This document shows, piece after piece, positions 2,178-10,999 of a DNA stretch of 33,370 nt. The DNA lies in contig CANRFU010000014.1 of assembly GCA_947629975.1 (NCBI GenBank), positions 1 to 33,370 of the forward strand, in the 5' to 3' direction. A model generated the notes under the pieces. It ran no database searches, had not been told where the DNA came from, and saw nothing but the letters and a program-made list of their open reading frames with translations. The position numbers and the translations under genes were made by a program. Within the stretch, counting starts at the first letter, position 1; every line of letters starts with the position of its first letter. The DNA comes from an uncultured Oscillospiraceae bacterium. GTDB lineage: Bacteria > Bacillota > Clostridia > Oscillospirales > Oscillospiraceae.

Positions 2178-3074
2178 ATGTCTGTGAACCGGCAATTCCA
2201 ACTGATCTGCCTCTTGCTGGAGCGGGGCCGCATGACCGCCGGGGCGCTGGCGGAGGCGCTGGAGGTCTCCCCACGCACCGTGCTGCGGGATGTGGACGCC
2301 CTGTCCGCCGCCGGGGTCCCGGTATACACCGCCCAGGGGGCCGGCGGCGGCGTGGCCCTCATGGACGGCTACGCGCTGGACAGGGCCCCCTTTACCGACG
2401 ATGAGCGGCAGCGGTTCCTCGCCGCCCTGGCGGGCCTCTCCGGCCAGGAGGACGCGGGGACCCTGGCCAAGCTCTCCGCCCTGTTCGCCCGCCAGGATGC
2501 GGACTGGCTGCGGGTCCATCTGTCCCGCTGGGGCGATCCTGACCGGGACGACGAGACCTTCCGGCGGCTGAGAGAGGCCATCCTGGAGCGGCGGTCCCTC
2601 CGCTTTTCCTATGCCTCCTCCCCGGGGGAGACGGGGGCGCGGCATGTCCTCCCCGCCCGGCTGATCTTCCGGGAGCGGGCGTGGTATCTGCAGGCCTTCG
2701 ACGCGGACTGGGAGGACTACCGCACGTTCCGCCTCACCCGCATCCTGCCCCCCGTAGAGGCGGGAGAGCCCTTCCGGCGCAGGCTGACCCCCCCGGACCT
2801 GGAGCCGGAGCGGGACATCCCGCCCCTGTTCCGGGTGGAGGCCCGGCTGCGCTTCTCCCCGGACCTGGCCTGCCGGGTACATGATGAGTTCGGCCGGGAC
2901 CGGATCACCCCCCTGCCAGACGGCTCGCTGCTGGTGGAGACGGTGTTTCCGGAGGACCAGCGGCTGTACGGCTACCTGCTGTCCTTCGGCCCTGGGGTGA
3001 CGGTGCTGGCGCCCGACACCCTGAGGAAGCGGCTGGGGGAGCTGGCCGGCGAAATCGCCCGTCAAAACGCGTGA
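2178..3074 (+). CDS. WYL-domain HTH transcriptional regulator (YafY/DeoR-like)
   Basis: This 298-residue regulator begins with a winged helix-turn-helix at about residues 1-55, recognisable by TAGALAEALEVSPRTVLRD and the GAGGGVAL wing. A WYL domain follows at about 130-215; its name-giving motif appears as ERAWYLQAFD, preceded by a SLRFSYAS strand. The remaining part to 298 fits the WCX extension. WYL domains bind nucleic acid or nucleotide ligands and often control DNA-damage or defence genes. GAGGAGG lies a few bases before the ATG. The gene lies between the zinc-ribbon gene and addB, with a 78-base gap to addB holding a strong inverted repeat. Control of addAB is an inference from position only. 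Confidence 0.88.
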   Translation: MSVNRQFQLICLLLERGRMTAGALAEALEVSPRTVLRDVDALSAAGVPVYTAQGAGGGVALMDGYALDRAPFTDDERQRFLAALAGLSGQEDAGTLAKLSALFARQDADWLRVHLSRWGDPDRDDETFRRLREAILERRSLRFSYASSPGETGARHVLPARLIFRERAWYLQAFDADWEDYRTFRLTRILPPVEAGEPFRRRLTPPDLEPERDIPPLFRVEARLRFSPDLACRVHDEFGRDRITPLPDGSLLVETVFPEDQRLYGYLLSFGPGVTVLAPDTLRKRLGELAGEIARQNA

Positions 3075-3079
3075 TTTCC

Positions 3080-3109
3080 GGGGGATGGGATCAAATCGTC
3101 CCATCCCCC
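3080..3109. repeat. inverted repeat between the WYL regulator and addB
   Basis: GGGGGATGGGA (3080-3090) and TCCCATCCCCC (3099-3109) form a perfect 11-bp stem with an 8-base loop. There is no T run after it, so it is not a classical terminator. It could be an operator for the adjacent WYL regulator or a transcript-processing hairpin. Confidence 0.6.
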
Positions 3110-3152
3110 GCTGTACGATAGTCCCGTAAACCGAGGAGAGGAGGCGGCGCTA

Positions 3153-6100
3153 TTGCTGACCCTGCTGTACCACCGGGGCGGTCAGGACGCCCGGGGCGAG
3201 CTGCTGGAGCGGATGGGCAGGTCCGCCGCCCGGAGGAACCTGCTCATCGTGCCCGAGCAGTGGTCCCATGAGAGCGAACGGGCCATGTGCGCCGCCCTGG
3301 GCAATTCCGCCTCCATGACCTGCGAGGTGCTGTCCTTTACCCGCCTGGCCGGCCGCCTGGCCGACGTCTGCGGCGGCGGGGCCGCCCCCATGCTGGACGG
3401 CGGGGGCCGGATGCTGCTCATGTACGCCGCCCTGCGGCAGATCGCCGACAGCCTGAGCGTGTACCGGGCCCCCTCCCGGAAGCCCGCCTTCCTCACAGGA
3501 CTGCTGGCCACAGTGGACGAGTGCCGCAGCTACCGGGTGGCCCCGGAGGAGCTCATCGTCGCCGGGGAGGAACTGGGCGGCCGGCAGGGGGACAAGTGGC
3601 GGGATCTGGGCCTCATTTACGCCGCCTATCAGAGCCTGGAGGGGCAGTCCGCCGCCGACCCCCGGAGCCGTCTGGACCGGCTGGCGGAGCAGCTGAAAAC
3701 CTCCCGCTGGGCGGACGGCATGGCCGCGTTCGTATATGGCTTCACCGACTTCACCCCCCAGGAGGAGGCGGTGCTGGCCCAGCTGATGGCCCAGGGGGAG
3801 GTCACCGTCTCCCTGCTGTGCGACCCGAAAGACAACTCCGATATATTCCGCCCCGCCCTCCGGTGCGCCGGACGGCTGAAACGGCTGGCAAGGGAGGACG
3901 CTTTACCCATGCGGGAAAAACAGCTCTCCCGACCGCTGTCCCGTCACCCCTCCCTGGTATTTTTGGAGGAAAACCTGTTCGGCGGGGAAAACGTCCGCCC
4001 CTGGGAGGGGGAGTGCGCCGTCACCCGGATCAGGGCGTCCGACCCCCGGCAGGAGGCGGAGTGGTGCGCCGCCGAGATCCGCCGGCTGCTGCGGGAGGAG
4101 GGATATCGCTGCCGGGACATCGCCGTGTGCGCCCGCCGCCTGGACGGGTACGGAGAACTGATCGAGAGCGTGTTCGCCCGGTACGGCATCCCGGTGTTCC
4201 TCAGCGCCATGGAGGACGTGCTGCAAAAGCCCCCCCTGGCCCTGGTGACCTCCGCCCTGGCCGCCGCTGCCGGAGATTACCCCTACGAGGAATTGTTCCG
4301 CTACCTCAAGACCGGCCTCACCGGCCTCACCGACGAGGAGCGGGACCTGCTGGAGAACTACGTCCTCACCTGGGACATCCGGGGCGGCACGTGGACAAGG
4401 GAGAAGCCCTGGGACATGCACCCGGAGGGCTACGGCCTGCCCTTCTCCCCCGAACAGCAGGCCCTGGTGGAGCGGCTAGACGGCGTCCGCCGGAAGGTCA
4501 TCGCCCCGCTGGAGCGTCTGCGCAAAGATCCGGACAGGACGGGCAGGGGCCGCGCTCTGGCCCTCTGGCGGCTGCTGGAGGACATCGGCCTGCCGGAGCG
4601 CCTGGGGCAGCGGGCGGATGATCTGGAGCGGCGGGGGAATCTGACCGCCGCCGCCCAGTACCGGCAGCTCTGGGACATCCTGGCGGGGGGACTGGAGCAG
4701 TGCGCCCTGCTGCTGGCCGGCGCGGAGCTGGACCTGGACGAGTTCTCCCGGCTGTTCTCCCTGGTGCTGTCCCAGTACGACGTAGGAGCCATCCCTGTAT
4801 CCCTGGACCGGGTGGCGGTGGGGGACGCTCCCCGCATGGCCCACCGGGAGGTCAAAGTCCTGTTCCTGCTGGGGGCGGACAGCGGCTCCATCCCCGACTG
4901 CACCCCCTCCCCCGGCCTGTTCACCGATCAGGACCGGGATGGGCTGACGCTCCACGACATCGAACTGGCCCCCCGGCAGGAGGACAAGCTCCGCCGGGAG
5001 ATGACCATCGCCTATGAGACCTGCGTCCGGCCCACAGAGAGACTATATGTGAGCTATGCCGCCGGGGCCGGGGACAACGGAAAGGCCCCCTCCTTCCTGT
5101 GGGAGCGGCTGGCCGCCCTGTTCTCCGGCGAGGAGACGATCGACGCCTCCCGGAGCCCCGCCCGGCTGACCGCCCCCGACGCGGCGCTGGATCTGGCGGG
5201 ACAGGACAGGGCCCTGGCCGCCCTGCTGCGGCAGGTCCCCGGACTGGACGAGCGGGTGGACCGGCTGGACCGGGCGGCCGCCTGGAGGCGGGGATCCCTG
5301 TCCCCCCAGGCGGTGACCGCCCTGTTCGGTCCTGCGGTGCCCATGTCGGCCACCCGGCTGGATCTCTACAACTCCTGCCACTTCAGCCACTTTATGCGCT
5401 TTGGGCTGGACGCCAAAGCCCGAAAGACGGCCAAATTCCGCCCCACCGACTACGGCACCTTCGTCCACGCGGTGCTGGAGGACACCCTCCGCTCCGCCGG
5501 GGAGCAAAGGATCTCCCTTGACGACCCCGAGGGCATCCGGCGGCTGGCGCAGGAGGCCGCCGGCCGGTACGAATCGGAGACGCTGTCCGGATTGGAGGGC
5601 GAGACCGCCCGGTTCCGCTGGCTGTTTGAGCGGATGAAGGAGTCCGCCCTAGCGGTGACCCAAAGCGTGTGCCAGGAGCTGGCCGTATCCGACTTTGACC
5701 CCGTGGCCTTCGAACTGGGCTTCGGGCGGGGCAAGACCCTGCCCCCCGTGGAGGTGAAAAACGGCGTCACCCTGCGGCTGTCCGGCGCGGTGGACCGGGT
5801 GGACTCCTGGGTGAAGGACGGGAAGCGCTACCTCCGGGTGGTGGACTACAAGACCGGCAAAAAATCCTTCGATTTCACCGACGTGGAGGACGGCCGGGGC
5901 CTCCAAATGCTGCTGTATCTGTTCACCCTGGCCCGCGAGGGAGGGGATCTGTTCGGCCCGGAGGAGATCGTCCCCGCCGGAGTGCTGTACGTCCCCGCCC
6001 GGGACCCGGTGATGGACGGCGAGCGGACCATGTCCGACGCCGACGTGCAAAAACAGCAGCGCCGGCAGCTCCGGCGGCAGGGCCTGGTGCTGGACGACCC

Positions 6101-6431
6101 GGACGTCATCGCCGCCATGGAACACACCGGTGAGGGTGGCTATCGTTTCCTGCCCGTGGACGGGAAAGGGGAATCCCTTGTCACCCCCGAGCAGATGGAA
6201 CTGCTGGACGAATACGTCACCGAGGCGCTGAACAAGGCCGCCGGAGAGCTGGCCGCCGGAGTCGTCGATGCCGACCCCTTCTGGCGGGACGGAACTCACA
6301 ACGCCTGCCGCTGGTGCGACTATCGGGCCGCCTGCCACTTTGAGGAGGGCTGCGGCGACCGGACCCGCTATCGCCGGGGCGTGAGGGCGGCGGAGTTCTG
6401 GAACTGGCTGGCGAAGAAGGCCGATCAGTAA
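3153..6431 (+). CDS. addB: AddB subunit of the AddAB helicase-nuclease
   Basis: At 1092 residues this has the usual length for clostridial AddB, partner of AddA in processing double-strand DNA ends for RecA loading. Visible features are the LLIVPEQWSHESERAM block near the N-terminus and the C-terminal RecB-type nuclease motif VVDYKTGKK (D898, K900). Four cysteines likely bind the iron-sulfur cluster: C742 in NSCHFSHF, then C1052, C1055 and C1061 in the CxxCxxxxxC motif close to the C-terminus. The start is TTG, preceded by GAGGAGAGGAGG. Unusually, the N-terminal position where AddB proteins normally carry a Walker A loop (GxxGxGKT/S) reads YHRGGQDARGELL, with no GKT/GKS. addA, normally adjacent, lies about 1 kb downstream behind a repeat element. 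Confidence 0.93.
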   Translation: MLTLLYHRGGQDARGELLERMGRSAARRNLLIVPEQWSHESERAMCAALGNSASMTCEVLSFTRLAGRLADVCGGGAAPMLDGGGRMLLMYAALRQIADSLSVYRAPSRKPAFLTGLLATVDECRSYRVAPEELIVAGEELGGRQGDKWRDLGLIYAAYQSLEGQSAADPRSRLDRLAEQLKTSRWADGMAAFVYGFTDFTPQEEAVLAQLMAQGEVTVSLLCDPKDNSDIFRPALRCAGRLKRLAREDALPMREKQLSRPLSRHPSLVFLEENLFGGENVRPWEGECAVTRIRASDPRQEAEWCAAEIRRLLREEGYRCRDIAVCARRLDGYGELIESVFARYGIPVFLSAMEDVLQKPPLALVTSALAAAAGDYPYEELFRYLKTGLTGLTDEERDLLENYVLTWDIRGGTWTREKPWDMHPEGYGLPFSPEQQALVERLDGVRRKVIAPLERLRKDPDRTGRGRALALWRLLEDIGLPERLGQRADDLERRGNLTAAAQYRQLWDILAGGLEQCALLLAGAELDLDEFSRLFSLVLSQYDVGAIPVSLDRVAVGDAPRMAHREVKVLFLLGADSGSIPDCTPSPGLFTDQDRDGLTLHDIELAPRQEDKLRREMTIAYETCVRPTERLYVSYAAGAGDNGKAPSFLWERLAALFSGEETIDASRSPARLTAPDAALDLAGQDRALAALLRQVPGLDERVDRLDRAAAWRRGSLSPQAVTALFGPAVPMSATRLDLYNSCHFSHFMRFGLDAKARKTAKFRPTDYGTFVHAVLEDTLRSAGEQRISLDDPEGIRRLAQEAAGRYESETLSGLEGETARFRWLFERMKESALAVTQSVCQELAVSDFDPVAFELGFGRGKTLPPVEVKNGVTLRLSGAVDRVDSWVKDGKRYLRVVDYKTGKKSFDFTDVEDGRGLQMLLYLFTLAREGGDLFGPEEIVPAGVLYVPARDPVMDGERTMSDADVQKQQRRQLRRQGLVLDDPDVIAAMEHTGEGGYRFLPVDGKGESLVTPEQMELLDEYVTEALNKAAGELAAGVVDADPFWRDGTHNACRWCDYRAACHFEEGCGDRTRYRRGVRAAEFWNWLAKKADQ

Positions 6432-6477: not shown

Positions 6478-6612
6478 GCGCGGCTTTGGAGGGCGGCAGC
6501 CCTCCGGCGGCGGCGAAGCCGACGACGGCCTGCGTAAGCAGGCAAAGACGCGCCCTTGCGCGGTACGGCCTCCGACGGGGAGGTTCCGCCTGCGGGCGGG
6601 TCACTTTTCCTC
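6478..6612. repeat. left inverted arm of the composite element
   Basis: It pairs with 7298-7376 (79 bases, one mismatch) and with 7161-7206 (46 bases, one mismatch). It contains the smaller palindrome GGAGGGCGGCAGCCCTCC and the short repeat GCCTGCGTAAGCAGGC, so the arm is itself built of small hairpins. Confidence 0.8.
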
Positions 6613-6628
6613 CGGAGGAAAAGTGACC
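6599..6628. repeat. perfect 30-bp palindrome
   Basis: The half GGTCACTTTTCCTCC is followed directly by its exact complement, with no loop. It marks the left boundary of the unique core. Confidence 0.85.
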
Positions 6629-6689
6629 AAAAGGCCGCTCAAGGGGCCGGCGGCCGGGTTGGAGCGTTCCGCTCCACAGGCCGCCTTGC

Positions 6690-7032
6690 CCCCTGAGGAC
6701 CCCCATTTACGGGGGAGCCCGCTTCGGTCTCTCGGCAATCGAACCCGGCACAAACAGCTTTCGCCCCGTTTTTCTTCGATTTGCGCCATGCGCTTGGTGC
6801 CTGAACACTGAGCCGCTCCGTCCTCTTTCGCTGTGCCTGGGTGGGCACTCACGCACCAACGGGGTGGTAGACACACCCCTTAGGCGCGGGTCGGTAGACT
6901 GGACTGTTCCGGTCACTAGACCGCCAGCGGCAGCGGAAAGAGCAACACCTGCATCCGAACGCCGCCGGCGCCGGAAGGACCATCTGATGCGGAACCATCA
7001 TGAGCCTCGTAAAAACCGGGGGTCCTTAGGGG
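6690..7032 (+). ncRNA. candidate structured RNA core closed by a 15-bp stem
   Basis: On the plus strand CCCCTGAGGACCCCC (6690-6704) pairs with GGGGGTCCTTAGGGG (7018-7032) over all 15 positions. One of these is a G-U pair, which would be a C-A mismatch on the other strand and so favours plus-strand RNA. Inside are local hairpins such as GGGGTG/CACCCC (near 6860-6880) and a bulged stem near 6889-6923. Competing stems exist: 6638-6647 with 6688-6697, 7025-7032 with 7088-7095, and 6700-6704 with 6711-6715. This may therefore be only an inverted repeat in DNA. No match to a known RNA family is recognised. Confidence 0.3.
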
Positions 7033-7105
7033 ACGGAGACGCTGAGAGCGTTGGACGTCCTCTGTCCAACGCGAACCGCGGCTCTGCCCCCTAAGCGCGC
7101 TCTTT

Positions 7106-7137
7106 GGGTACTTTCTCTCGCGCGAGAGAAAGTACCC
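7106..7137. repeat. perfect 32-bp palindrome
   Basis: The half GGGTACTTTCTCTCGC is followed directly by its exact complement. It marks the right boundary of the unique core and mirrors the palindrome at 6599-6628 in design: GGT/GGG, then ACTTT and a pyrimidine run. Confidence 0.85.
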
Positions 7138-7293
7138 CGCCGGAGGCCGTGCCTCCCGCAGAGGAAAAGTGACCCGCCCGCAGGCGGAACCTCCCCGCCG
7201 GAGGCCAGTCCCCCACGCGGGGGAAAAGTAGGTCGCCGGAAGGCGAAACCCTTCTTTCCGCATGAGAGAAAGTACCCCGCCGGAGGCCGTGCC
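7124..7293. repeat. modular direct repeats in the right arm
   Basis: A 30-base sequence at 7124-7153 recurs exactly at 7264-7293. Its core CCCCGCCGGAGGCC is present a third time at 7193-7206, and inverted with one mismatch at 6567-6580. Between the copies are different short inserts, so the arm is a mosaic of modules. Confidence 0.75.
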
Positions 7294-7376
7294 CCGCAGG
7301 GCGCGTCTTTGCCTGCTTACGCAGGCTGTCGTCGGCTTCGCCGCCGCCGGAGGGCTGCCGCCCTCCAAAGCCGCGC
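7161..7376. repeat. right inverted arm of the composite element
   Basis: Segments 7161-7206 and 7298-7376 are inverted copies of parts of the left arm. They are separated here by an additional module (7207-7274) with no counterpart on the left. Confidence 0.75.
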
Positions 7377-7394: not shown

Positions 7395-7423
7395 AAGCCT
7401 TCCCCCCTGCTGGTGGAAGGCTT
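7395..7423 (+). promoter_or_regulatory. leader hairpin in front of addA
   Basis: AAGCCTTCC (7395-7403) and GGAAGGCTT (7415-7423) form a 9-bp stem ending five bases before the AAGGAGG ribosome binding site of addA. It may protect or modulate the start site. No T run follows, so a terminator is unlikely. Confidence 0.45.
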
Positions 7424-7444
7424 TACGAAAGGAGGCCGCGCCTC

Positions 7445-10400
7445 ATGGACCTGACAAGAGAACAGCGCACCGCTGTGGAGAACCGGGGCGGCGATCTGCT
7501 GGTGGCCGCCGCCGCCGGGTCCGGCAAGACGCGGGTGCTGGTGGAGCGGCTCATGGGCTGGGTAGAGGCCGGCGAGGACATCGACCGCTTCCTGGTCATC
7601 ACCTTCACCAACGCCGCCGCCGCCGAGCTGCGGGGCCGCATCGCCGCCGCCATCCACACCCTGCTGGCAAAGCGGCCGGGGGATCCCCACCTCCGCCGGA
7701 ACGCCACCCTGGTGTACAAGGCCCCCATCTGCACCATCGACGCCTTCTGCCTGGACTTTCTACGGCAGTGGGGGCACCTCATTGACCTGGACCCGGACTT
7801 CCGCGTCTGCGACGAGGCGGAGGGCGACGAACTCCGCGCCCGCGCCCTGGAGGAGGTGCTGGAGGACCGCTACGCCCACATCCGGAACGACCCCGCCTTC
7901 GCCGCCCTGGCGGCCGAACTGGCCGGGGAGCGGGACGATCAGACCCTGGAGGAAGTTGTCCTGGACATCCACCGGCGGGTCCAGGCCCAGACCGACCCAA
8001 AGGGCTGGCTGCTGGCGCGGCGCAAGGATTTCGCCCTGCCGGCGAACGCCATGCCCGAGGACACCCCCTGGGGCCGGCTGCTGCTGGCCGACGCCCGCTC
8101 CCTGGCGGACAGCTGGCGCAGGACCCTGGACGATCTTCGATATGAGGTCAGCTTCGACGAGGGTCTGGAGAAGAACTGGGGGGACTCCCTGGACGGGACC
8201 ATCGCCGCGCTGGAGGCCCTCTCCGCCGCGCTGGCTCAGGGCTGGGACCAGGCCGCCGCCTGCTTCCCCGTCCCCTTCCCCCGGATCGGGACCAAAAAGG
8301 GGGACTGCGACGAGGGGCTGAAGGCCCGCCTCAAAGCCCAGCGAGACCTGTGCCGGGAACAGATGAAAAAGCTGGCCGCCCGGTTCGAGATCACCGGGGA
8401 CCAGGCCATGGAGGATCTGCGGGCGGTCTCCCCCGCCATGACGGCGCTGCTGGAGGTCACCGCCCAGTTCGGGGACGCCTTTGCCGCCGCCAAGGCGAAA
8501 CGGCGCCTCATCGACTTCAACGACGGGGAACACCTCTCCGCAAAGCTGCTGACCGATGCCGATGGCTCCCCCACTGATCTGGCCCTGGACGTGGGGACCC
8601 AGTTCAAAGAGATCATGGTGGACGAGTACCAGGACACCAACGGCGTGCAGAACGCCATCTTCGGGGCGCTGGCAAGCCATCACAACCTGTTCATGGTGGG
8701 GGACGTGAAGCAGTCCATCTACCGGTTCCGGCTGGCCGACCCCGCCATCTTCCTGGACAAGTACGACCGGTATCCCACAGCGGAGGACGCGGCAGACGGA
8801 GAGGGCCGCAAGCTGCTGCTGTCCGCCAACTTCCGCTCCCGGCCCGAGATACTGGACGGAGTCAACTTCATTTTCCGGAACGTGATGAGCCGGGAGAGCG
8901 GCGAGCTGGACTACACCGCCGCCGAGGAGCTGCGCCCCGGCCGGGCCGATCCGGCCCCCGACCCCCGGTACAGCGTCGAACTGGACTGCGTGGACCTGTC
9001 CGATCTCACCGACGACCCGGACACCGGGCGGGCGGACAAGGACCTGGTGGAGGCCCGGGCCGCCGCGCGGCGCATCCGCGAGCTGCTGGACAGCGGCCTG
9101 CCCGTGGGGGACCGGCCCGTCCGGCCGGAGGACATCGTCATCCTGCTCCGCTCGCCGGGGCCGGTGATCCGCCACTACGCCGCCGCCCTGGACGAGCTGT
9201 CCGTCCCCTGGACCGCCGAGGGGGGGCGGGACTTCTTCGGCTCCACCGAGATCTCGGTGGCCATCGCCCTGCTGCAAGTCCTGGATAATCCCCGGCAGGA
9301 CGTGCCCCTGCTGGCCGTCCTCCGCTCCCCCCTGTTCCACTTCACCCCCGACCGGCTGGCATACCTGCGGGCCGGCAACGGGGGGACCGTGTACGACTGC
9401 CTCTCCGCCGGGGCCGCCCGTGGAGAGGCGGACTGCGCCTCCTTCCTGTCCCTGCTGGGCGAGCTGCGGGAGCTGGCCGTCGAGGAGAGCAGCCACCGAC
9501 TGATCTGGGAGATCTACGGCCGGCTGGACGTGCCGGCGGTGTTCGCCGCCATGCCCGAGGGCCAGCAGCGGAGGGCCAACCTGATGGCCCTGTACGACGA
9601 GGCCGCCCGGTTTGAGAGCGCCGGCCACCGGGGCCTCATGGCCTTCCTGCTCCATCTCAGCCGCATGGCGGAGAACGGCGTGCCCGTCCCCGTGCCCTCG
9701 GCGGAGGGGGGCGGGGTGCGGATTTTGTCCATCCACAAGTCCAAGGGGCTGGAGTTCCCGGTGGTGTTCCTCTGCGGGCTGGAGCGCCGCTTTAACGAGG
9801 GGGACTCCCACGAGACCATCCTGTTCCACCCGGATCTGGGGCTGGGCCCCAAGCGCATCGACCGGACCCGGATGCTCCGCTATACGACGATGGCAAGAGA
9901 CGCCGTGGCCCTCAGGCTGCGGCAGCAGCTCCGGGCGGAGGAGATGCGCCTGCTGTACGTGGCCATGACCCGGGCGGAGCACAAGCTGTTCCTGTTCGCG
10001 GCGGTGAACGGGCGGGCGGGTTCGCTGGCGTCCCAGGCCGCCCAGGCCCAGTGTCCCCCCTCCCCCCGGCAGATGGCGGAGGCGAACTCCATGGCCGCCT
10101 GGGTGCTGGCCCCGGCCCTGTGCCGGTCCGACAGCTGGGCCCTCTGGGAGAACACCGACGCCCCCCGGCCCCTGCCCCCGGCGGACCAGGGCTTTCCCTG
10201 GGACATCCGGCTGCTGTCCGGGCGGGACTACGAAAAGCCTCAGCTAACCGCCGCCGGAAACAGGGCGGAGACCGCCCGCCGGTACGATCTCCCGGACAAT
10301 CTGCTGGAAACCCTTTGCTGGAAGTATCCCCACGGCGTGTCGGCGGATATGCCGTCGAAACTCACCGCCACCCAGCTGAAGGGCCGGGAGAAGGACAAGG

Positions 10401-10999
10401 AGGCCGCCGAGGAGGCCGCCGAATACCGCCCCGCCCCCCAGTCTGTCAGTCTCCGGCGGCCCGTATTTCAGAGGGACCGGCCCCTCACCCCCGCCCAGCG
10501 GGGCACCGCCCTCCACATGGTGATGCAGTACCTGGACTACGGCAAAACCGACGCCCCGGAACAGGTGCGGAACGAGACCGCCCGGCTGGTGTCCGGCCAG
10601 TTCATCACCCCCCAGCAGGGGGAGGCGGTGGACCCGGACGACATCCTGGCCTTTTTTCGCTCCGATCTGGGCAGGCGGCTGAGGGCCGCCCTCCGGGTGG
10701 AGCGGGAATTCAAGTTCTCCCTGCTGGCCCCCGCCGCGGACTACTACCCCAACGCCGAGGAAGGGGAACAGGTCCTCCTCCAGGGGGTGGTGGACTGCTG
10801 GTTCGTTGAGGCCGACGGCGCGGTCACCGTAGTGGACTTCAAGACAGACCGGGTGACGGAGGACACCGTAAATCAGCGGGCGGAAGAGTACCGGCCCCAG
10901 CTCACGGCGTACAGCCGCGCCCTGTCCGAGGCGGCCGGAGTCAAAGTGTCCCGCCGATGCCTGTGGTTCTTCGCCCTGGGCCGGGAAATCGATGTATAA
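7445..10999 (+). CDS. addA: AddA subunit of the AddAB helicase-nuclease
   Basis: This 1184-residue UvrD/Rep-type helicase has a C-terminal RecB-family nuclease domain. The start is the ATG at 7445 behind AAAGGAGG, giving MDLTREQRTAVENRGG. Visible motifs are Walker A AAAGSGKT (about 22-29), Walker B VDEYQDTN (D393, E394), GDVKQSIYRFR, ILSIHKSKGLEFPVVFL, LLYVAMTRAEHKL, and the nuclease core VVDFKTD (D1131, K1133). It unwinds DNA ends and degrades the 3' strand, with AddB acting on the 5' strand and in recombination-hotspot recognition. The gap from addB carries the inverted-repeat element. Whether addA is transcribed through that element or from a promoter within it cannot be decided from the sequence. 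A convergent recR gene follows across a shared terminator. Confidence 0.96.
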   Translation: MDLTREQRTAVENRGGDLLVAAAAGSGKTRVLVERLMGWVEAGEDIDRFLVITFTNAAAAELRGRIAAAIHTLLAKRPGDPHLRRNATLVYKAPICTIDAFCLDFLRQWGHLIDLDPDFRVCDEAEGDELRARALEEVLEDRYAHIRNDPAFAALAAELAGERDDQTLEEVVLDIHRRVQAQTDPKGWLLARRKDFALPANAMPEDTPWGRLLLADARSLADSWRRTLDDLRYEVSFDEGLEKNWGDSLDGTIAALEALSAALAQGWDQAAACFPVPFPRIGTKKGDCDEGLKARLKAQRDLCREQMKKLAARFEITGDQAMEDLRAVSPAMTALLEVTAQFGDAFAAAKAKRRLIDFNDGEHLSAKLLTDADGSPTDLALDVGTQFKEIMVDEYQDTNGVQNAIFGALASHHNLFMVGDVKQSIYRFRLADPAIFLDKYDRYPTAEDAADGEGRKLLLSANFRSRPEILDGVNFIFRNVMSRESGELDYTAAEELRPGRADPAPDPRYSVELDCVDLSDLTDDPDTGRADKDLVEARAAARRIRELLDSGLPVGDRPVRPEDIVILLRSPGPVIRHYAAALDELSVPWTAEGGRDFFGSTEISVAIALLQVLDNPRQDVPLLAVLRSPLFHFTPDRLAYLRAGNGGTVYDCLSAGAARGEADCASFLSLLGELRELAVEESSHRLIWEIYGRLDVPAVFAAMPEGQQRRANLMALYDEAARFESAGHRGLMAFLLHLSRMAENGVPVPVPSAEGGGVRILSIHKSKGLEFPVVFLCGLERRFNEGDSHETILFHPDLGLGPKRIDRTRMLRYTTMARDAVALRLRQQLRAEEMRLLYVAMTRAEHKLFLFAAVNGRAGSLASQAAQAQCPPSPRQMAEANSMAAWVLAPALCRSDSWALWENTDAPRPLPPADQGFPWDIRLLSGRDYEKPQLTAAGNRAETARRYDLPDNLLETLCWKYPHGVSADMPSKLTATQLKGREKDKEAAEEAAEYRPAPQSVSLRRPVFQRDRPLTPAQRGTALHMVMQYLDYGKTDAPEQVRNETARLVSGQFITPQQGEAVDPDDILAFFRSDLGRRLRAALRVEREFKFSLLAPAADYYPNAEEGEQVLLQGVVDCWFVEADGAVTVVDFKTDRVTEDTVNQRAEEYRPQLTAYSRALSEAAGVKVSRRCLWFFALGREIDV

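Follow-up and report, generated by a model that had tools for sequence, protein, structure and literature searches.

Bacterial intergenic regions commonly contain palindromic repeats that lack a transposase, and these often have no explanation. In the p-dif modules of Acinetobacter plasmids, genes are bracketed by inverted recombination-like sites, with no recombinase inside. TIRtrons (TIRYT elements), as described in part of PMC3733652, flank a Y1 gene; some have self-complementary TIRs and dimers, and a GGGGWSAS motif is common to some. The family reported here belongs with the non-autonomous, transposase-less palindromic elements (MITE- or REPIN-like) and is of a known kind; what is unusual in it is its XRE cargo, its structured ends, and a rule by which a linker mirrors the arm of a palindrome. 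Like MITEs, its members are short, intergenic, multicopy and without a visible transposase, with terminal inverted repeats. They differ in having two-hairpin ends of roughly 70-125 nt instead of plain TIRs, in showing no readable duplication and no matching autonomous element, and in long forms that bear a regulator gene. With REPINs and GTAG REPs, which have a RAYT, they share inverted hairpin pairs, non-autonomy and a short tag beside the hairpin, but their ends are much longer, they have cargo genes, and many carriers have no Y1. As in p-dif modules, genes lie between inverted sites and no recombinase is seen inside; the sites here, however, are palindromic and have hairpins behind them.

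We studied an insert between addB and addA in the window, the whole 33,370-nt stretch analysed, which is contig C14 of a draft genome (G000; 1.86 Mb, 98 contigs, 93% complete). The features of this locus are as follows.

3153 to 6431, plus strand: addB, helicase-exonuclease subunit B (TIGR02773, 597.6 bits, under the curated cut-off of 903.7); the insert comes after its stop codon
6478 to 6556, plus strand: left 79-nt arm of the outer module, 1 mismatch to the right arm
6567 to 6598, plus strand: H0 of the left end, an outer GC hairpin region within a 53-nt inverted pair, with terminator-like sites at 6585-6601 on the plus strand
6599 to 6628, unstranded: H1 palindrome of the left end, TTTTCC class, 30 nt, perfect and loop-less
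6629 to 6634, plus strand: linker AAAAGG of the left end, mirror of the H1 right arm
6637 to 6704, plus strand: H2 hairpin of the left end, closing with ACCCCC
6705 to 7017, unstranded: gene-less core with subterminal motifs AGCGGCAGC (6926) and GGCGCCGGAAGG (6967)
7018 to 7095, minus strand: H2 hairpin of the right end
7100 to 7105, minus strand: linker of the right end, AAAGAG on the minus strand
7106 to 7137, unstranded: H1 palindrome of the right end, TTTCTCTC class, 32 nt, perfect and loop-less
7138 to 7297, minus strand: stack of outer half-H1 units, read by eye; 7154-7206 pairs with 6567-6619
7298 to 7376, minus strand: right 79-nt arm, 1 mismatch to the left arm
7445 to 10999, plus strand: addA (TIGR02785, 882.3 bits, over the cut-off of 707.65)

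A first-pass annotation of the same DNA had reported nested inverted repeats and two loop-less palindromes between addB and addA. Both gene calls are right, and the repeats are real: their lengths and mismatches were reproduced, and exact inverted matches between 6200 and 7700 reach 49 nt, whereas none of 100 shuffles of two-base blocks gave one above 20 nt. The second inverted pair, 6567-6612 with 7161-7206, is 46 nt at 98% and extends to 53 nt at 92%. The annotation had also proposed a composite of palindromic modules, which fits what we read by eye. On this reading the segment 7138-7297 is a series of right H1 halves with their outer hairpins, and modules resembling the 79-nt arms stand on both sides of a second copy of the element in the related genome G052. 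At the addB-addA site itself, again by eye, there is one arm-like module in G006, on the addB side, and one in G052, on the addA side. The half-palindrome stack was probably built by nested insertion or by rearrangement, for which we propose recombination at H1 centres. A separate small hairpin, AAGCCTTCCCCC...GGTGGAAGGCTT, lies at 7395-7423 directly before addA; units like it occur beside elements in G006, and they seem to be another dispersed repeat.

All 42 genomes of the genus searched have AddA, and we examined the junction at 30 loci, G000 included. At 27 of these addB directly adjoins or overlaps addA (gap -10 to -1). A gap between them occurs only in G000 (1013 bp), G052 (987 bp) and G006 (909 bp). 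The idea of an insertion into the operon is borne out by the 27 of 29 other genus genomes that have the junction without insert, and there is, as the annotation had said, no transposase in the addB-addA insert. The test of mobility it had suggested, copies with the same ends together with empty junctions, gave both.

Within the insert, the inner element (6597-7137) belongs to a dispersed family and has no genes. Its core of about 310 nt had been called unique, which is wrong: parts of the right half of the element match two other places in G000 (74%) and the G006 copies (86-87%). Matches to the element sequence were found in 14 of the 40 genomes searched (G000 included), all of the same genus, and at other places in G000. 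The end pattern, with at most 1 mismatch, occurs in at least 15 of 42 genus genomes, a lower bound because G001, G010 and G018 lack the pattern yet have covariance-model hits; there are up to 18 ends per genome, and the reversed control gave 0. A similar exact end pattern was found in 45 stretches of an 84,980-species collection, titled Oscillospiraceae, Bacillota or uncultured bacteria, many of which apparently coincide with contigs of genus genomes already counted. A covariance model built from 37 ends, with only 11 pairs and rough E-values, was run on 245 genomes of the order; at E up to 1e-5 it detected related ends in 15 of them (4 of the genus) and in 7 of 126 genera. It matches window 7018-7137 at E 1.2e-22, both window ends being among the 37 training ends. 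G006 has three copies at different loci that are 91-94% identical over 547-548 nt, and its remaining two copies are 72-88% identical to those three and to each other.

Viruses and plasmids were rejected as carriers of the family. The genus end pattern gave 0 hits on viral contigs, and the window element had no match in phage records. Against plasmids it gave one 53-bp match, a lone H1 with linker at L198 4001-4053 on Vescimonas fastidiosa pMM35_01, a large plasmid on which it sits between annotated genes; plasmid searches with a second element and with L244 gave no match. An Rfam family as the identity of the element was rejected: the window insert gave seven matches, all below the gathering score and mostly to microRNA models, nine further loci gave one T-box only, outside the element, eight loci at E up to 0.05 gave none, and no match within the elements exceeded the gathering score. 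The open-access literature searched, with the string GAAAGTAACC and DUF6809 among the terms, did not describe the family.

The ends share an anatomy. From the outside in, each consists of the GC-rich hairpin H0, the palindrome H1, a short linker and the hairpin H2, which typically opens with CTTAGGGGG and closes with CCCCCTAAG, followed typically by AACCCCC. Of the 1540 positions compared in the H1 arms of 110 distinct ends, 1456 are paired (with the centre chosen for best fit), and many variants have changed on both sides, among them GTTAC/GTAAC, GGTAC/GTACC, GTCAC/GTGAC and CCTAC/GTAGG. The linker in these 110 ends is AAAGAG (80), AAAAGG (18), AAAGAC (10) or another (2). It mirrors H1: the 6-mer of the H1 right arm, reversed but not complemented, equals the linker 6-mer in 107 of 111 distinct ends, compared with a mean of 62.5 and a maximum of 73 when linkers were shuffled 1000 times, although the ends, being related and mostly of three classes, are less independent than 107/111 suggests. 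The two ends of one element often disagree. H1 classes differ between them in 24 of 33 distinct paired elements, and in 20 of those 24 both linkers match their own H1. Two subterminal motifs recur: GCTGCCGC (1 mismatch allowed) at 75 of 108 ends versus 30 after one shuffle of each, and CCTTCCGGCG at 39 of 108 versus 5 after one shuffle of each. Runs of three and four are usual in the genus; the H1 at L142 in G048, right after a gene stop, has instead runs of five, of T and of A, and its linker has five A.

Empty sites were found for several copies. The site of the G006 copy on contig C58 is empty in G000 and G050, that of the copy on C54 in G052 and G050, and that of the second G052 copy in G050 and in the window, near 2880-3280. 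No target-site duplication was readable at the filled and empty site pairs compared. From such genome comparisons we infer that the elements move. Behind the element L069, the site in 12 genomes (four read in part) has paired ends in two (G016, and G044 with its right end read by eye), one end in two, a lone H1 or half of one in two, nothing in five, and a single hybrid H1 in G043. This G043 scar (L134, C33:68064-68098) is one H1 made of two unlike outer halves, where relatives have a whole element; such a hybrid can also come from a simple deletion between two direct H1 repeats. It was the sole hit in 42 genomes of a solo-palindrome pattern, which covers the GGCGTTAC type only, and on that count we rejected solo palindromes as independent target repeats.

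Two further sites show what changes between the ends. At mnmG in 12 genomes (three read in part) there are four XRE-bearing pairs, one gene-less pair, one single end, one remnant, one XRE gene pair without ends (G055), one other gene, and nothing in three. At the third site, G044 and G043 have flanks that are 92-95% identical and ends that are alike, but their middles are unrelated; G043 and G002 are collinear there at 80%. The difference between G044 and G043 is best read as a cassette exchange within conserved ends. Between some orthologous elements there are also differences in the form of internal gaps.

At the addB-addA junction the window copy lies in the opposite orientation to both sister copies. 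The flanks are collinear with those of G052, and window 6478-6873 and 7005-7205 match G052 in reverse; in G006 it is window 6875-7156 that matches in reverse. Local alignment of the window element scored 273 flipped to 59 in the same direction with G052, and 339 to 95 with G006, the element being partly symmetric, so that short or weaker matches in the other direction occur too. For G052 against G006 the same direction is better over whole elements (251 to 152), but over the cores alone the flipped direction is better (77 to 43), so the lineage that inverted is not certain. The reversed part begins at the left 79-nt arm, which makes recombination between the two arms in the window lineage a simple cause, and it is by this route that the inner part may have been flipped. 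Alternatively, the window copy may have inserted in the other direction.

Some members carry genes. Of 34 distinct paired elements, counting L215 from a different family of the order, 11 encode a small protein with an XRE helix-turn-helix, namely all ten elements of 1037-1305 bp and one of 776 bp; the other 23, of 366-758 bp, have no XRE protein. The profile was trained on ten of these eleven elements, which leaves L170 as its one independent hit; in two more elements, L059 and L054, XRE is confirmed by Pfam. A DUF6809-like profile matches six XRE elements, the same six that built it, and Pfam gives a weak DUF6809 match in L059 (E 6e-4, below the cut-off) and none in L054. L063 and L078 have another small ORF that looks like a ribbon-helix-helix protein by eye. 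Inspection by eye of the ORF clusters in 26 paired elements showed no transposase; a minority of these ORFs were scanned against a library. The window copy has no genes. Upstream of mnmG, the XRE gene and its opposite-strand partner occur with palindromic ends in L066 (G054) and without them in L152 (G055), so genes and ends can part company. Gene-less copies would be internal-deletion derivatives of XRE-bearing cassettes, but derivation could also have run the other way, from gene-less to XRE-bearing, as the G055 pair without ends would allow.

The explanation that we consider probable, taken as a whole, is that the insert belongs to a dispersed family of non-autonomous elements with palindromic ends, a copy of which lies at the normally overlapping addB-addA junction of G000, G006 and G052. 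The genome comparisons support it: 27 other genus genomes lack the insert, the element is multicopy and has empty sites, its two-hairpin ends are conserved, and XRE-bearing forms occur besides gene-less ones. Because the genomes are drafts, many of them titled as MAGs, their nested repeats could be wrongly assembled, and G000 is in 98 contigs, with repeats of a kind that is hard to assemble. Still, we give an assembly artefact a very slim chance as the source of the nested arms, because two separate genomes, G006 and G052, also have homologous inserts at this junction, and arms stand on both sides of the second G052 copy. It is scarcely credible that the insert is structured intergenic DNA that does not move and has been retained between addB and addA to act as a terminator or insulator. 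Seven overlapping terminator-like sites (in five places, against 1.5 expected) do lie at the element ends, pointing inward, and every copy whose flanks were read is intergenic; yet the insert is missing at most of the other junctions, the closely similar G006 copies sit at unrelated sites, and the empty sites of relatives contradict a fixed position.

The readings differ on what would move the element. We favor a trans-acting enzyme outside the Y1/HUH class that would recognise the folded H1-linker-H2 end. Hairpin ends, inverted end pairing, a short motif next to the hairpin that varies with the arm, and the lack of a visible transposase inside all recall a REPIN/RAYT-type element or a TIRtron, which would be mobilised by a Y1 (HUH) tyrosine transposase through cleavage of folded single strands at the foot of the hairpin. 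Y1_Tnp, the one family covered by our genome-wide transposase search, does occur in 16 of 42 genus genomes, with four hits in G000. It is present in 7 of 15 genomes with the end pattern and in 9 of 27 without; the eight genus genomes that have ends and no Y1_Tnp include G016 (95% complete) and G002 (94%), and it is also missing from 8 of 14 order genomes with model hits, including G270 (100% complete). The Y1 loci themselves had ends of this family in 0 of 29 cases (up to 1.5 kb on each side), while the same finder succeeded at 38 of 39 control loci, which sets the family apart from TIRtrons by locus and not by comparison of TIRtron sequences. Nor did any of 110 ends have a GTAG or CGTC tag at the hairpin foot; GTAG appears only inside the paired arm of the CCTAC class. 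A Y1/HUH mobiliser is largely refuted by the missing Y1_Tnp and the 0 of 29 loci, and we rejected it as very unlikely; guides of the IS200/IS605 kind were dropped because Y1 is missing in many carriers. Another reading takes the H1 palindromes as sites for a site-specific recombinase, as in p-dif modules, with circularising cassettes exchanged at the palindrome centre. The absence of a recombinase inside, the inverted palindromes that bracket changing XRE cargo at one site, the G043 palindrome of two unlike outer halves and, by eye, the half-H1 stacks would all suit it. What makes it rather improbable is that the arms match within one H1 and not between outer halves, with differing H1 classes in most paired elements, that a solo palindrome of the pattern searched occurs in only one of 42 genomes, and that homology runs inward over H2, which is not known of p-dif modules.

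The run-length part of the mirror rule recurs on viral contigs, judging by matches in IMG/VR. A linker of three A with arm runs of three or more gave 11 stretches, and with arm runs of four or more gave 0; a linker of four gave 4 stretches with arms of three or more, all also found with arms of four or more, and 10 in the search with arms of four or more; a linker of five with arms of five or more gave 4. Read one by one, these loci contain 25 distinct places whose two arms have runs of the same length (no place had to be left out because its arms differed), and the linker run equals the arm run in 24 of them, the exception being L247, with 4 against 3. Most of these places were selected by the pattern itself, the fair tests being a linker of four with arms of at least three and a linker of three with arms of at least four, where numbers are small. 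An H2-like stem of at least 7 follows the linker in 10 of 25 places (shuffle p at most 0.02), a feature not selected for, although some loci are alike. L242 and L271 may be chance matches, and L269 resembles the Oscillospiraceae genus itself. L239 is probably gammaproteobacterial, because the mutS-like gene beside it matches Aeromonas and enterobacteria best (70-75%).

At three of these viral loci the TwoAYGGAY RNA (Rfam RF01731) lies 38-65 bp inside the H1-linker end with this motif: L239 2752-2942, L264 9605-9770 and L268 598-780. In L265 it is present but far from the end, and it was found neither in the window insert nor in the other order loci searched. TwoAYGGAY is listed, in part of PMC2864571, for the human gut, gamma-Proteobacteria and Clostridiales, and part of PMC4333381 proposes it as a CsrA-binding RNA of unknown function. 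Its position suggests that it may be part of a mobile element. More broadly, and with considerable doubt, we suggest a cross-phylum class of mobile DNA end in which the linker mirrors the palindrome arm, reversed and not complementary, with n T in the arm and n A in the linker (n = 3, 4 or 5). Such ends might be read by a new class of enzyme through a non-standard contact, for example a fold-back triplex or parallel pairing. In gut Clostridia the ends might have captured exchangeable XRE-regulator cassettes.

At the junction itself, the insert could plausibly disturb transcription of addA. No promoter-like site was found in the addB-addA insert, and AAAGGAGG at 7428-7435, before the addA start, is likely its ribosome-binding site. 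Together with the terminator-like sites, these features lead to the prediction that the insert uncouples addA from addB and that addA would be translated from its own ribosome-binding site. The insert separates the genes of two subunits of the AddAB break-repair enzyme, which overlap or abut in most relatives. One family is traceable here from empty to filled site, through gene-bearing and gene-less forms and apparent cassette exchange, and a candidate RNA motif, TwoAYGGAY, is tied to such ends at three loci. That the linker mirrors the arm is a sharp, testable rule, and it makes the question of what moves elements that no transposase fits directly testable.
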